Part shown: positions 26,925 through 54,304 of the stretch, in pieces
Numbering within the stretch: the stretch's first letter is position 1
Layout of the letters: every line of letters begins with the position of its first letter
From: Acidobacteriota bacterium
GTDB lineage: Bacteria; Acidobacteriota; Terriglobia; 2-12-FULL-54-10
NCBI GenBank assembly: GCA_009691245.1
Contig: SHUM01000002.1
Coordinates: forward strand, 62,001-126,000
Length of the DNA stretch: 64,000 nt
Reading direction: 5' to 3'
Notes under the pieces: generated by a model
Told to the model about the DNA's origin: nothing
The model's database searches: none
What the model saw: the letters and a program-made list of their open reading frames with translations, nothing else
Program-made: the position numbers and the translations under genes

Positions 26925-27083
26925 TATCCGAGCCGCGCCAGTGATGAAGCGGCCACCATGCGGATAAGCCCGACCAAGTTGCCGTTGTAAGCAACGCCCC
27001 GCAAACGGGCACGGGTTTTCCAACCCATACCGAATCGCGTTACCTACATGGTGGCCGCTCCATTACTGGCGCGGCTCGGATCA
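26925..27083. repeat. Palindromic repeat, family B, copy 1 (overlaps pyrE stop)
   Basis: The arms ATCCGAGCCGCGCCAGTGAT and its counterpart ending GCGCGGCTCGGATCA are about 38-base imperfect reverse complements. The right end supplies the TGA stop codon of pyrE (27081-27083), and the left end begins 14 bases after the siderophore receptor stop. It lies between convergent genes and may also act as a terminator. Confidence 0.8.
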
Positions 27084-27986
27084 GCGATTCGCCACGTCGA
27101 AGCGGCGGGTGGAGAGGAATTGCTGGATGCGCTGGTGGTCGGCGGCGGTGATGAGCGCTTCGGCGTGGTAGAAGTCCACAACGTCCTTCAACTGAAAAAT
27201 GCTGTGCAGGTCGAAGCCTTCTTCGCGCAGGCCGTCGCCTTGGCCGCGGTCAAAGAAGACGATGATGCGCGTCAGCGGGACGCCTTCGGCGCGGAGCTTT
27301 GCGGCGGCGGCGCGTTTGGTGAGACCGCTGGCCACCACGTCGTCAATCAGGTTGTATTCGCGCTCGACGCAACTGTCACCGCCAGCAGGAGCATCGACTG
27401 GCGCAGATTCGCTTGCCCCTGGAATTGTGGCTGCGGGCCTCGTGGGCGCGCCCTGAACGCCATCAATATGGCGTTCAGTAGCGCGGCTCGGATCAGGCTT
27501 CGCCTGATGAGGGCCAATCCAGAAACTTTCTTCGTGGCCTGGATAGCGCTTGGCTTCCTTGCGCAGCAGCGCGAAGGTGATCTCCGGCGCCGCGGGATTC
27601 TGCCAGGCGTGGAGCGCGGTGGCCAGCGCCAGCGGCGTGGCCGTGTCGGGAATGCCGATGACTATTTGCGGTATCGGCTGCGGCGCGGGAGAGCCAGCGT
27701 CTCCCGGCGTGAGCGTGAGTTCTCCATCGGCCCGTTTGCTGACGCGCGCGGCACTGGCACTATCCTTGGCCCGCTCGCGAATCTTCCCCGCGAACGCGCC
27801 GCCGATGCGCCATAGCACCTCGGGATGCGCGTAGAGGTTCTCGCGCATGTTGATGTAGATGGGCGAGCGCAGGCCGACGCGTCGCTCGACTTCATCGCCT
27901 ATCAGCACGCAGCCGGCGGCGAACAGATCGCGCAGCAGTGTGCGTTGATCAGCCGTGTACGGCGCGTTGGGCGTGGTGGCGTTCAT
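27081..27986 (-). CDS. pyrE: Orotate phosphoribosyltransferase, expanded by insertions
   Basis: The enzyme joins orotate to PRPP in pyrimidine synthesis. Family segments are LFAAGCVLIGDEVERRVGLR, SPIYINMRENLYAHPEVL, IVIGIPDTATPLALA, LLRKEAKRYPGHEESFWIG, and the PRPP-binding loop YNLIDDVVASGLTK (about 211-224). At 301 residues it is some 80 longer than usual. The excess lies in two low-complexity insertions: about residues 72-104 and about 159-207, just before the PRPP loop. Both are built from sequences that recur elsewhere in the window: the first matches 32 of 34 bases of repeat family C, and the second holds a 16-base match to the end of repeat family B and two hairpins. The frame stays open through both. 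The stop codon lies in a family B repeat. Whether the protein is active is not visible. Confidence 0.85.
   Translation of the reverse strand: MNATTPNAPYTADQRTLLRDLFAAGCVLIGDEVERRVGLRSPIYINMRENLYAHPEVLWRIGGAFAGKIRERAKDSASAARVSKRADGELTLTPGDAGSPAPQPIPQIVIGIPDTATPLALATALHAWQNPAAPEITFALLRKEAKRYPGHEESFWIGPHQAKPDPSRATERHIDGVQGAPTRPAATIPGASESAPVDAPAGGDSCVEREYNLIDDVVASGLTKRAAAAKLRAEGVPLTRIIVFFDRGQGDGLREEGFDLHSIFQLKDVVDFYHAEALITAADHQRIQQFLSTRRFDVANR
27366..27512. repeat. Repeat-derived insertion inside pyrE (hairpins, family B end)
   Basis: This stretch of the pyrE coding sequence includes CTGAACGCCAT-N4-ATGGCGTTCAG, then GCGCGGCTCGGATCAG (27481-27496), identical to the right end of the repeat at 27069-27084, then ATCAGGC-N3-GCCTGAT. 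It keeps the reading frame and encodes about 49 residues rich in Pro and Ala. Confidence 0.7.
27723..27756 (-). repeat. Family C repeat core inside pyrE
   Basis: Read on the minus strand, this 34-base stretch begins CAGTGCCGCGCGCGTCAGC and matches 32 of 34 bases at 48022-48055. It encodes SAARVSKRADG within the first insertion of pyrE. Confidence 0.75.
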
Positions 27987-29553: not shown

Positions 29554-29709
29554 CAATCCGAGCCGCGACAGTAATGGAGCAGCCACAATGTCCGATCATC
29601 GATGAGCGTTCGCTTGGAACACATCGCCCGCCACACGTCTCTTTGCTTTCATTTGATTTGCCGACGGATACGCATGGTGGCCGCTCCATGACTGTCGCGG
29701 CTCGGATCA
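29554..29709. repeat. Palindromic repeat, family B, copy 2
   Basis: CAATCCGAGCCGCGACAGTA at the left and its counterpart ending TGTCGCGGCTCGGATCA at the right form arms of about 38 bases, closely like the repeat at 26925-27083. It occupies half of the 333-base gap 29496-29828 between the hydrolase and the divergent receptor; nothing else is recognised in that gap. Confidence 0.8.
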
Positions 29710-33005: not shown

Positions 33006-33010
33006 TTTTT

Positions 33011-33097
33011 AACAGAGCCGCGACAGTGAGGGAGCGGTGGTTGGTACTTCCCATGAAGGAAAACCAACCCCCGCTCCCTCACGGTCGCGGCTCTGTT
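33011..33097. repeat. Palindromic repeat, family A, copy 2 (overlaps hydrolase stop)
   Basis: AACAGAGCCGCGACAGTGAG and its counterpart ending CGGTCGCGGCTCTGTT form near-perfect arms of about 35 bases. The left end starts 5 bases after the receptor stop, and the right end contains most of the TAA stop of the convergent hydrolase (33096-33098). It fills the whole gap between two convergent genes. Confidence 0.85.
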
Positions 33098-34484
33098 ACT
33101 GCGCCAGCCACATCAGCGCCGCGAGCAAACCGCCGGCTAACTGCTTGGGCTTCTCCACATGGCCGTAGTGGGTCATGGGCACATCAAAAACCATCACGCG
33201 GATCGGGATGCCGGGGTTGGCTTTGCGGAATTCGTTGGCCACTTGCAGTTCGCGCGCCTTGGTGGAGTCCTTGTCCCAGTGCCCGTCGTCAAGCTGCGCC
33301 GTGGTCCAGATCATCTTCGTATAGCCCACCTCGGGCGACTTCATAGTCGAGAATAGATCGCGAATCACCTCGTCAGGATTCACGCCTAGCTTATTGCCCT
33401 TCAGCGTTTCACGGATTTGCGTGGCGGCATTTTCGCGCAGATTGTCGGCGCTGTTGTGCTCCATGTCCTGAAGCGGCTGCTTGAACTTCGGGCGGCGGCG
33501 CTCTTCCAATCCCATCCAATGCTCGGCCATCGCTTCGCGCGACTTGCTCGCGTCCCAGACGGGATTCAGCGGGCCAAGATATCCACGCGCGTGCCCGCTA
33601 TTGGGCCGCGCGCGCAACTCGCGCACGTGCAGATAATCGTCCGCGCCGCGCTCGCCGCGGAACTCCTGCATGGCCGCCAGCGACGCCGGTCCTCCCGTGC
33701 CCCATCCGAGCGACAGCCCGCGCAGGCGCGACTTCAGACGGTCTTTCAAGAGGAACTGAATCTCCCCTCCCGTCGAATGGCCCACGATCACCACCGGGCC
33801 CTGCACGACTTTTTCTATGATGGCCGCCACGCCGTCAGCCACCACGCGGAACGTGTACGCCGCGTTACGAAACTTCAGTTCGTCGGCGGAAACATCGCGG
33901 TCCAGCACATAGCCGGGGATGCGCTCCTCATATTTCGCCTCACTCCAGCCGCCGTGGCGGAAATTGCCGGGGATGGTGACAATCAGCGTCGGGACGCGCT
34001 GCGCGAGGTACTGCCCCAGGCCCGGCGCGTTGAGCGGATCGACGAAAAACTCATACCAGTTGGAGGAGCCGCCGTTGATGATGACCATGGTCGGCAAATT
34101 GGGACTTACGGGATGGAGCGGCGTCAGCATTAGGCCGGGAATGTCCCACTCGATGCCGTAAACTTTGTAGCGAACCTCATGCCACTTGACGCGATAGCCG
34201 AGCTGGGCCTCAGAGATCGACTCCAGCTTGCGCGGATCGAACGCGCCGCCGGGCGCGGCGTCGGCCAGCGCCTTCACCGCCGCGCCGCCGTCGGGCAAAT
34301 CCCAGCCGAGGCGATTGAACACCTCAGGCGTGACGGCGTGAAACGGCTTGTTCTCGCCCAGCATCTTGACGACTTCGTCTTCCGCATCACCTACCGCCGC
34401 GGTGCGCGCCGATAAATTCCAGGCAAGTGAAAAAAGCAAGGCGAGCATGGCGGTCGCCAGAATTCGAATATTTCTGTTTTTCAT
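33096..34484 (-). CDS. Secreted alpha/beta hydrolase
   Basis: The product (462 residues) has a signal peptide (ILATAMLALLFSLAWNLSA), an oxyanion-type strand TMVIINGGSSNWYEFFVDP, the nucleophile elbow VGHSTGGEIQF and a C-terminal histidine-containing segment VFDVPMTHYGHVEKPKQL. AGGAGG lies seven bases before the ATG. The overall plan resembles the hydrolase at 28080 although the sequences are well diverged. Its stop codon is supplied by a palindromic repeat. An esterase-type reaction is inferred from the fold. Confidence 0.75.
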   Translation of the reverse strand: MKNRNIRILATAMLALLFSLAWNLSARTAAVGDAEDEVVKMLGENKPFHAVTPEVFNRLGWDLPDGGAAVKALADAAPGGAFDPRKLESISEAQLGYRVKWHEVRYKVYGIEWDIPGLMLTPLHPVSPNLPTMVIINGGSSNWYEFFVDPLNAPGLGQYLAQRVPTLIVTIPGNFRHGGWSEAKYEERIPGYVLDRDVSADELKFRNAAYTFRVVADGVAAIIEKVVQGPVVIVGHSTGGEIQFLLKDRLKSRLRGLSLGWGTGGPASLAAMQEFRGERGADDYLHVRELRARPNSGHARGYLGPLNPVWDASKSREAMAEHWMGLEERRRPKFKQPLQDMEHNSADNLRENAATQIRETLKGNKLGVNPDEVIRDLFSTMKSPEVGYTKMIWTTAQLDDGHWDKDSTKARELQVANEFRKANPGIPIRVMVFDVPMTHYGHVEKPKQLAGGLLAALMWLAQ

Positions 34485-37188: not shown

Positions 37189-38472
37189 ATGACGGTCGCG
37201 CCGGTCATATTCAGCATGAATACTGAGACAATCCATCCATCCATCACCAATCGTTGGAGGCAGGAGCTTCCTGCATGGCTTGCGGGCGGAGCCTGCGCCA
37301 CGATTACCATCTCCATCGCGGTGTCGCAGATTCTGCTGGCGGCTAGCGTGCTGGCGATTCTCTTCAGGCGCGACCATAAGCGCGGCCGGGAGCGTGGCAT
37401 GCTGCCCGCCACATGGGCTTGGCCGCTGCTGGGCTTCATCCTCTGGACTGCGCTCTCACTGGCATTTTCCGACGCGCCATTAGCCGGACTCTCTCAGATC
37501 AAGAAGCTGGTGCTGCTGGCCGTGATTCCCATCACCTACACAGCCTTTACGCGCGCGTCCCAAGTTGACTGGACGTTGCGCGCGACGCTGCTCACCGGAA
37601 CGGCGTCGGCGGGGTGGGGGCTGATCCAGTTCGTTGGCGATTATCGTTACATCGCGGCGCAGAACCTGCCCTTTTATGAAAACTACATCACGCATCAGAT
37701 CACCGGCTTCATGAGCCACTGGATGACCTATGGCGGACAGCTCATGCTCCTCATCATGGGCGTGGCCGCTATGATTTTTTTCAGGCAGGGCGGTCAACGC
37801 GCTTGGGCGCTGATCGGATTCTCGTTGACCAGCACGGCGCTCCTCGCCGCCTTCACGCGTGGGGCGTGGCTCGGCGCGCTGGTGGGATTTAGCTATCTGG
37901 TCTACTCGTACCGCAAGTGGCTGGTGCCACTGATCCCGGCGGGCCTGCTGATACTCTATCTGGCCGCGCCGGATGCACTGCGGAAGCGCGAGCAGTCAAT
38001 TGTGGAGCCGGGGTCGGACTCCTCCATTCAATCGCGCTTGGTGATGGCCCGCACCGGGCTAGCGATGATCGTTGCTCATCCTCTATTCGGCGTGGGGCCG
38101 GAGCGCGTTGCGCCGATGTTCGAGCGGTACCGGCCGGCGGGGATCACTCTGCCACCAGCCTGGTATGGACATCTGCACAACAGCTTCATTCACTTCGCGG
38201 CGGAGCGCGGCCTGCCCGCGCTGGCATTTTTCGTTTGGCTGATCGTAGTGATTCTGCGTGCCAATTACCGTCTGACATCGGCGCGCAACGCAGCCACGGC
38301 TGCGCTGGCGCGCACGGCGGTGGCGGCCACGCTGGGGATGATCGTGTTGGGTGCCTTCGAATATAACTTCGGCGACTCGGAGGTGCTGATGCTCTACCTA
38401 TTTTTCGTTACGCTGCCGCTGGCCGCCAGCAGGCTGGAATTGGACGATATCAAAACAGAGCCGCGACCGTAA
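37189..38472 (+). CDS. O-antigen ligase family membrane protein
   Basis: The product (427 residues) has about ten hydrophobic segments and the Wzy_C/WaaL-type features: a large periplasmic loop (about residues 250-330) with GVGPERVAPMF and GHLHNSFIHFAAERGLPAL, including the conserved histidines and arginine. Such proteins transfer or polymerise undecaprenyl-linked glycans at the outer face of the inner membrane. The start is ATG 37189, with ATG 37216 as alternative. The last residues KTEPRP and the TAA stop are encoded by the left arm of a palindromic repeat, so the natural C-terminus may have been replaced. Confidence 0.82.
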   Translation: MTVAPVIFSMNTETIHPSITNRWRQELPAWLAGGACATITISIAVSQILLAASVLAILFRRDHKRGRERGMLPATWAWPLLGFILWTALSLAFSDAPLAGLSQIKKLVLLAVIPITYTAFTRASQVDWTLRATLLTGTASAGWGLIQFVGDYRYIAAQNLPFYENYITHQITGFMSHWMTYGGQLMLLIMGVAAMIFFRQGGQRAWALIGFSLTSTALLAAFTRGAWLGALVGFSYLVYSYRKWLVPLIPAGLLILYLAAPDALRKREQSIVEPGSDSSIQSRLVMARTGLAMIVAHPLFGVGPERVAPMFERYRPAGITLPPAWYGHLHNSFIHFAAERGLPALAFFVWLIVVILRANYRLTSARNAATAALARTAVAATLGMIVLGAFEYNFGDSEVLMLYLFFVTLPLAASRLELDDIKTEPRP

Positions 38473-38552
38473 GGGAGCGGGAGTTGGCGCTGCGGTGGCG
38501 GGTATTGAATGTACGAACGAACCCCGCTCCCTTACGGTCGCGGCTCTGTTTT
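38452..38552. repeat. Palindromic repeat, family A, copy 3 (encodes ligase C-terminus)
   Basis: AAAACAGAGCCGCGACCGTA and its counterpart ending TCGCGGCTCTGTTTT form arms of about 30 bases with one or two mismatches. The left arm encodes the last six residues and stop codon of the O-antigen ligase gene; the right arm lies just before the methyltransferase. Confidence 0.85.
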
Positions 38553-38581
38553 GCATCACGCCTGGCGTGGGAGTATTTTGC

Positions 38582-39163: not shown

Positions 39164-39192
39164 TCAAGAATATCCCGAACCCGCATGCCCGA

Positions 39193-39366
39193 AGGGCATG
39201 ACCGTGAATAGCCGCAGGTGAAACCTACGGTTCAGAACGGACAAATGTGGTCCAACCCCGAACGGGGTTGACTTCGAATTTGTTAGTCCGGCCCCTTCAG
39301 GGCCGCTCGTATTTTGGGAACCCGCAGTCCGTAGGTTTCACCTGCGGCTATTCACGGTCATGCCCT
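39193..39366. repeat. Long inverted repeat with 38-base perfect arms
   Basis: The arms 39193-39230 and 39329-39366 are exact reverse complements (beginning AGGGCATGACCGTGAATAGC). The 98-base centre contains smaller hairpins such as CCCCGAACGGGG-type and CCCTTCAGGGC-type sequences, and a further TTGCCCTTCGGGCAA hairpin lies just outside. It sits between the methyltransferase and the convergent topA gene. Confidence 0.85.
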
Positions 39367-39410
39367 CCAGGTAACTTCCGAGCAAGTAGTTGCCCTTCGG
39401 GCAACCGCCA

Positions 39411-47999: not shown

Positions 48000-48020
48000 T
48001 TGGTGCGCCATTGCCGCGTG

Positions 48021-48177
48021 ACAGTGCCGCGCGCGTCAGCAAGCGGGCCGCTGGAAAAACCACGCCCCGGCCGCCGATGTTTTCCCCACTCCGCATGCAA
48101 CGCCATCATGAAACCCAACCGTCACCGACCGGGGCGTTGCGTTCCATCAGCCCGCTCGCTCAAGCGCGCGGCACTGT
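48021..48177. repeat. Palindromic repeat, family C (encodes RND permease C-terminus)
   Basis: The left arm begins ACAGTGCCGCGCGCGTCAGC and the right arm is its imperfect reverse complement over about 50 bases, down to a shared ACGCCCCGG. The right arm encodes the last residues TVPRA and the TGA stop of the RND permease gene. A 34-base piece of the same repeat lies inside pyrE. Confidence 0.8.
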
Positions 48178-52568: not shown

Positions 52569-52643
52569 TCATTCCGAGCGCAGCGAGGAATCTGCTTTTC
52601 GCGCGCTACTGAAAAAGCAGATTCCTCGCTGCGCTCGGAATGA
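52569..52643. repeat. Inverted repeat with 31-base perfect arms
   Basis: The arms 52569-52599 and 52613-52643 are exact reverse complements (starting TCATTCCGAGCGCAGCGAGG) around a 13-base loop. It lies between the GlcG-like gene and the adaptor gene, both on the minus strand. It is a different sequence family from A, B and C. Confidence 0.85.
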
Positions 52644-54021: not shown

Positions 54022-54129
54022 AAGTTAAGTTCCTGTGAAAAGCAAGCAAAGCAGTGAATGGTGAGTGGTGGAACACGGTTTACGTATGAATAGCTAAAAA
54101 GCTGTTGTTTGACCTATTTTAACGCATCA

Positions 54130-54267
54130 TAAGGGCACGGTTTCAACCGTGCCAAACCGTGGCTCTCAGACCCGAGGCTTTAGCCGCTGAGGGCCAACGA
54201 CGCACCTCAGGGGCTAAAGCCCGTCATCGTTACGGCCTCCATCGGCACGGTTGAAGCCGTGCCCTTA
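54130..54267. repeat. Inverted repeat of the GGGCTTTAGCC type
   Basis: The outer arms TAAGGGCACGGTTTCAACCG (54130-) and their near-exact complement ending at 54267 enclose a second pair (GGCTTTAGCC / GGCTAAAGCC with CTGAGG blocks). The gap 54022-54359 also holds blocks of AGTGAATGGTGAGTGG-like sequence at 54053-54070 and 54305-54375; no gene is seen. Confidence 0.8.
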
Positions 54268-54304
54268 CGATCGCCAAACGAGGTTATGCAACAGTCCCTA
54301 TTGT

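Follow-up and report, generated by a model that had tools for sequence, protein, structure and literature searches.

The closest described relatives of the elements reported here are the repeats of class 3 TnpA-Y1 systems, a small group of HUH-Y1 transposases from Planctomycetes, Acidobacteria and Proteobacteria described in a 2018 survey (PMC6006769). Members of this class have an HUH motif of the form NHVH, a W[TA] motif and the Y motif YV[VI][AENY]EQ (Table 1, PMC6006769), and their flanking hairpins have the foot CnGA and reach about 600 copies in Solibacter usitatus (PMC6006769). Repeats inside protein genes are unreported in the class 3 description given by that survey (PMC6006769). Other REPs have been found in frame in genes: the GTAG- and CGTC-tagged superfamilies, including the Rickettsia elements RPE-4 and RPE-6, were catalogued in 2013 (PMC3733652), and in a recent review the Rickettsia palindromic elements (RPEs) stand out for how often they form such fusions (PMC10969869).

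The DNA analysed here is a 64,000-nt stretch of the genome of an uncultured Acidobacteriota bacterium (the window), in which the single pyrE gene very probably carries two inserted REP elements of the class 3 TnpA-Y1 kind (HUH/tyrosine, REP-associated), most likely as neutral passengers. The system shares with the published class 3 description its occurrence in Acidobacteria, an HUH transposase with W[TA] and Y----Q motifs (its HUH sequence departing from NHVH), and flanking, high-copy hairpins, which have a CnGA foot in families A and B; unlike that description, it comprises three co-existing families, one of which (family C) has the foot CAGT, and some of its copies lie in frame in genes (PMC6006769). 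In the GTAG- and CGTC-tagged superfamilies, too, REPs occur singly or as dimers in frame in many unrelated genes, add 20-30 residues or more and hit some genes more than once; those superfamilies, however, differ in sequence and are mostly from other phyla, and pyrE is not among the examples considered here (PMC3733652). The GTAG or CGTC end tag is absent here: the feet are CAGA, CAGT and CCGA, and the CGTC that some units contain is internal to the hairpin, at its loop.

RPEs have in common with the present elements that mobile palindromes lie in frame in conserved genes, with an added peptide that appears to be tolerated, but they were about 150 bp long as first reported (PMC10969869) and belong to a different phylum. 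RPEs are also far more often intragenic (nearly half of them in R. conorii). REPINs of the classical sort lie mostly outside genes, have a foot of the GTAG type and go with class 2 transposases (PMC6006769). The feature shared with the REPIN/RAYT systems is the presence of inverted REP pairs tied to a REP-associated tyrosine transposase (PMC3116915). The first-pass annotation had compared the pyrE insertions with RPEs, noting a different sequence and phylum, and this likeness holds in effect, which is the level of comparison here: in-frame insertion into unrelated genes with empty homologues was found for pyrE, a PSD protein and a methyltransferase. It missed the closer class 3 relatives and the earlier records, from bacteria other than Rickettsia, of REPs lying in frame within genes (PMC3733652). 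Searches of the open-access literature turned up no account of class 3 REPs within protein-coding genes of Acidobacteria. Intragenic in-frame REPs as such are known, and their Acidobacterial class 3 type, present twice in a sole pyrE gene, appears to be new.

Table 1. Features of the pyrE locus and repeat pairs in the window (positions are those of the window).
Feature	Position	Strand	Evidence or remarks
pyrE, orotate phosphoribosyltransferase (OPRT), 301 aa, two in-frame insertions	27081..27986	-	ORF; TIGR00336/NF010382; 2wns; fold match
Insertion 1, 27 residues (77-103, ASAARVSKRADGELTLTPGDAGSPAPQ)	27678..27758	-	absent in six homologues; coding score drop
Insertion 2, 44 residues (163-206, KPDPSRATERHIDGVQGAPTRPAATIPGASESAPVDAPAGGDSC)	27369..27500	-	absent in six homologues; coding score drop; predicted disorder
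REP unit, family C, core hairpin CAGT-G-CCGC..GTCA..ACGG; foot 2 nt from insertion 1 start	27732..27756	-	57 further genome matches
REP unit, I2 type; foot CCGA at 27488-27491; long hairpin 27453-27478	27437..27500	-	five strong further copies
Second perfect hairpin, ATCAGGC-GAA-GCCTGAT, spans 5' border of insertion 2	27492..27508	-	hairpin search
Family B repeat pair, inverted, 42-nt arms, at/just past 3' end of pyrE	26926..27081	.	inverted-repeat and genome search
Family B repeat pair, second	29556..29707	.	inverted-repeat and genome search
Family A repeat pair	33010..33098	.	inverted-repeat and genome search
Family A repeat pair, 31-nt arms, 100% complementary	38451..38553	.	inverted-repeat and genome search
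Family C repeat pair, outside pyrE	48018..48177	.	inverted-repeat and genome search

The product of pyrE has both the OPRT fold and the PRPP motif. Its residues 213-296 match the NCBIfam pyrE models; among solved structures, human OPRT (2wns) is the closest in sequence, and a fold comparison of the predicted structure finds OPRTs with an E value of 1e-11. The PF00156 score is under the curated cut-off of that model, as expected for a fold interrupted by insertions. The gene is the sole match in the source genome, a 3.43-Mb assembly with an estimated completeness of 100%.

Alignment with Acidobacteriota PyrE proteins, a check that the first-pass annotation had proposed, placed the borders of both insertions to within a few nucleotides and showed that neither has a counterpart in six homologues, four from other genera of the same family (G002, G003, G005 and G006) and two from more distant Acidobacteria (L204 and L205). 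The named relatives in the genome collection were three genomes already compared and two more distant ones, and none of them has the insertions. Together the insertions account for 71 excess residues, close to the 80 or so noted before, and both lie within the previously marked span (27366-27773), the end of which runs 15 nt beyond insertion 1. The nearest available PyrE is about 60-67% identical in the best segments and no near-identical empty site was found for either insertion, which limits the precision of the borders to a few nucleotides and gives no basis for a target rule. The only same-genus assembly (G001) offers neither borders nor a target rule, since its contig ends between a conserved neighbour gene, which is only 74% identical, and the expected place of pyrE. 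Around the two insertions, no direct repeats of 8 nt or more (target duplications) were present.

The coding score per codon, from a model trained on the 64-kb window, averages 0.34 over pyrE and drops to 0.0 around insertion 1 and to -0.28 in insertion 2. The structure model has mostly confident values in the core, and the two insertions differ. Insertion 1 lies between a helix and the next strand and is of intermediate quality (pLDDT about 65-74), with two short strands. Insertion 2 (pLDDT about 30) is disordered and occupies the turn joining the flexible catalytic loop (K143, K146) to the strand whose end bears the PRPP motif (D215, D216). It had been described as directly preceding the PRPP loop; it does lie ahead of it, but with a strand between, and ends nine residues before D215.

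Both insertions contain repeat sequence. The one in insertion 1 is 84% identical over 56 nt to the family C repeat at 48018-48073, and its further matches in the genome (E ≤ 0.03, the best 7e-13) are so numerous that the similarity is not due to chance. The insertion 2 repeat recurs at five other places in the genome with strong matches (E values of 2e-15 to 1e-10). Insertion 2 contains the shared GCGGCTCGGATCAG end, a perfect 11-bp hairpin (27453-27478) and a perfect 7-bp hairpin (27492-27508), and its hairpin unit, judged by eye from the genome copies, resembles a family B unit to which an extra, longer central hairpin has been added. The first-pass annotation had recognised the family C likeness in one insertion, and the family B end and both hairpins in the other, and these assignments stand. 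The segment 27437-27525, which covers the hairpins of insertion 2, folds at z = -4.4, and insertion 1 showed no special RNA fold (z = +1.4). Read in the direction of pyrE, the repeat sits at the 5' end of each insertion, with its foot 2 nt (insertion 1) and 9 nt (insertion 2) from the aligned border. About 50 nt of insertion 1 and 68 nt of insertion 2 have no other strong match; the part of each without one exceeds half its length and therefore either has another origin or has decayed.

These data bear on whether the insertions are an old functional part of PyrE, such as regulatory or oligomerisation loops, with an incidental likeness to repeats. The open frame of both insertions and the moderate model confidence and short strands of insertion 1 would fit such a history, but the DNA matches dispersed repeats, the coding score collapses in both insertions, insertion 2 is predicted to be disordered, and the other genera lack both, which indicates that they are not an old PyrE feature. 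The first-pass annotation had named conserved insertions in close relatives as the sign of an old protein part; the outcome of this check is mixed, as the insertions are absent from the other genera but the only same-genus assembly lacks pyrE itself, and in other genes the sister species does have a repeat at the same site. We regard the old-feature explanation as largely refuted and very improbable.

Another possibility is that pyrE is dying, inactivated by the insertions and open in frame only because these are recent. Two insertions in one gene would be in line with decay, as would the changes in the core of the protein, where 12 of 80 positions invariant among relatives are altered (the relatives each differ at 0 to 8 of 68-76). 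Such an excess means that PyrE activity may be reduced, and the changes could be a sign of adaptation to the inserts or of slight decay. Loss of the enzyme nevertheless seems improbable: pyrE is the only copy in a genome judged complete, its 301 codons contain no stop or frameshift, the coding signal outside the insertions is strong, and the catalytic-loop lysines K143 and K146 and the PRPP motif residues D215-D216 are retained. Least credible of all is that the ribosome skips the hairpin inserts (programmed bypassing), or that they are otherwise removed, to yield a PyrE of normal length; the strong hairpin and the modelled disorder of insertion 2 would suit this idea, but bypassing requires neither a length divisible by three nor the absence of stops, and both insertions have these properties. 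The PyrE protein with its inserts is probably produced and enzymatically active.

The repeats of pyrE belong to a genome-wide load of three related families with about 200 units. Searches with the insertion 1 repeat, the insertion 2 repeat, family A and family B returned 58, 23, 85 and 82 matches, respectively, the last two counts covering both strands of self-complementary pairs, and removal of duplicates left 219 repeat units. They occur in high copy number, commonly as single units and also as inverted pairs. Ordinary units of all families follow a plan of roughly 25 nt: a foot C-N-G-A/T and a G are followed by the outer stem CCGC/GCGG, two mismatched positions per side, an inner stem of 2 bp and a loop of four bases of the type GTNA. 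Family A has CC/GG as its inner stem, family B CA/TG and family C GC/GC, and the 5' foot is CAGA in family A, CCGA in family B and I2, and CAGT in family C, to which the insertion 1 repeat belongs. Outer-stem variants include CCCC/GGGG and CCAC/GTGG. Across 103 distinct units, 94% of stem pairs are formed, compared to a mean of 80% and a maximum of 83% in 1000 column shuffles. Compensatory base changes are found on both sides of the inner and outer stems, although the sequences fall into few families and the independent changes are accordingly few.

The A/B core has 166 matches in the source genome, against none for the reversed-pattern control. The search for the repeats covered 121 genomes of the same class as the source genome, in which the core is present in all seven members of the family, patchily in a few other families and nowhere in most, with a single match to the reversed pattern. 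In one genome (G004:C58:25294-26207), three family B-like units recur at intervals of exactly 441 nt, which suggests that they form a tandem array. The window also contains other inverted repeats. One at 39188-39371 (43 nt, 95% complementary, 98 nt apart) contains TGAAACCTACGG, which also starts the terminal repeat of a Y1 transposase in G001 (L260). A second, at 54126-54271 with GGGCACGGTTTCAACCGTGCC, resembles the terminal repeats of another type of Y1 transposase (L107, L262). A perfect 31-nt inverted repeat, TCATTCCGAGCGCAGCGAGGAATCTGCTTTT, flanks 13 nt at 52569-52643.

Copies in other genes were picked by scanning for an open frame through the repeat with a coding signal on both sides. 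At least five genes besides pyrE carry in-frame copies, namely those for a short-chain fatty acid (SCFA) transporter (PF02667), a DUF1592/PSD protein, a methyltransferase, a PD40 protein and a membrane-type protein without a Pfam match. With the empty homologues of pyrE and the repeat copies across the genome, these unrelated genes bear out the earlier reading of the pyrE insertions as repeat-derived and in frame. As the copies were found through their open frames, their number is no evidence for a mechanism that favours the frame. They are a minority, by estimate about ten of some 125 elements. Further candidates (L179, L169, L193, L091 and L096) were rejected or left out, as a plausible start codon follows the repeat or the frame is weak or antisense.

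Homologues in other genera are empty for the PSD protein and the methyltransferase. The SCFA transporter of the same-genus species has this repeat, too, at the same place and in frame, and those of other genera have unrelated linkers; this site varies in length in all relatives, which makes the empty state less clear. At the loop of the PSD protein the source genome has a family A repeat, and the same-genus contig ends in the start of a family B repeat; in the methyltransferase, the source genome has a CCCC/GGGG pair and the same-genus genome the end of a canonical family A repeat. The loops with variants are at G000:C31:8851, compared with the end of G001:C314, and at G000:C3:51489-51568, compared with the end of G001:C167 (L198, L237, L134, L238); both G001 contigs end inside or beside REP repeats. 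The presence of different variants at the same loops looks like repeated insertion at permissive sites, with conversion between repeats as the alternative. Since the sister species has repeats at the same sites of other genes, some of the insertions, or else the hot spots that received them, go back to the origin of the genus. A bolder proposal, which we put forward tentatively and hold to be somewhat less probable than its opposite, is that in this lineage class 3 REPs land again and again in particular loops of conserved enzymes, with different families or variants in sister species; REPs would then supply proteins with new segments continually, and not only by rare accident.

The PD40 beta-propeller protein (G000:C82:1-2172, L197) contains at least three, perhaps four, REP-derived segments, with the sequences PPPLADARGT, SQSRDREGAG..PPLADARGT and QSRDREGAGV. 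This case is based on an uninterrupted frame, a coding signal on both sides and Pfam matches downstream.

The source genome encodes six Y1 transposases. One of them (C80; G000:C80:8995-9474, L309) has a family C pair on one side and a family A pair on the other; it is the only class 3-like transposase in the genome and is full length but for one in-frame TAG. An intact class 3-like transposase with family C pairs on both flanks is present in G001. The relatives of C80 form a distinct group, mostly about 45-66% identical among themselves, without clear similarity to the other Y1 proteins compared. They have RW[AT]RHG and YVxxxQ motifs and an HUH motif of DHIH, SHVH or THVH, compared to the published NHVH; given these two motifs, the inexact HUH and the feet CnGA (families A and B) and CAGT (family C), we place the group as class 3-like. 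The other Y1 transposases of the genome were set aside as partners of the repeats since their terminal repeats are different.

A search with one member of the group found class 3-like transposases in 12 of the 121 genomes. At least five A/B cores are present in 10 of these 12 genomes, compared to 8 of the 109 without the transposase (Fisher p 2e-8, uncorrected for kinship). REP cores adjoin the class 3-like gene in ten genomes (G000, G001, G002, G004, G010, G015, G044 and G050, and more weakly G079 and G092). The G081 locus has no REP cores, and the G112 locus has a different motif. At 27 other Y1 transposase loci (83 kb) there were only two REP cores.

It has to be considered whether the repeats are instead MITEs of another transposase type, or were spread by recombination or gene conversion, with an incidental link to class 3. 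The pairs, with their inverted arms of 31-42 nt, are MITE-like, the genome has five other Y1 transposases and a class 3-like copy with a TAG, and three repeat-bearing members of the family are without a class 3-like gene. On the other hand, single units are common, the family A/B foot and the Y motif fit the published description of class 3 (PMC6006769), and the cores adjoining class 3-like genes in ten genomes are essentially absent at other Y1 loci. An origin outside class 3 is therefore unlikely, if the most serious of the alternatives, and we infer that the hairpins were mobilised by a class 3-like transposase.

Under the preferred reading, insertion of class 3 REPs, hairpin DNA would be inserted by the transposase, probably near the repeat foot, and selection would then keep only those events that are in frame and located in loops. 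Survival of a REP within a gene would require that the frame is kept, that the frame read contains no stop and that the site is a tolerant surface loop. In pyrE the extra residues would be translated and tolerated by the enzyme, those of insertion 2 probably in a disordered state. The fold model, likewise proposed in the first-pass annotation, agrees with such a site for insertion 2, which is disordered in a turn, and places insertion 1 with moderate confidence between a helix and a strand. The residues of both insertions are most likely neutral passengers of a selfish repeat and not selected parts of the protein.

Proteins with such inserts are a warning that domain models falter on them, as PF00156 does on PyrE. 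With insert-free relatives at hand, the cost of the insertions to a sole housekeeping enzyme is directly measurable by insert removal. These results extend the in-frame lengthening of conserved proteins by mobile palindromes beyond Rickettsia and the groups listed in 2013, and link it, in Acidobacteriota, to one particular class of transposases that has been little studied and whose repeats can be recognised.
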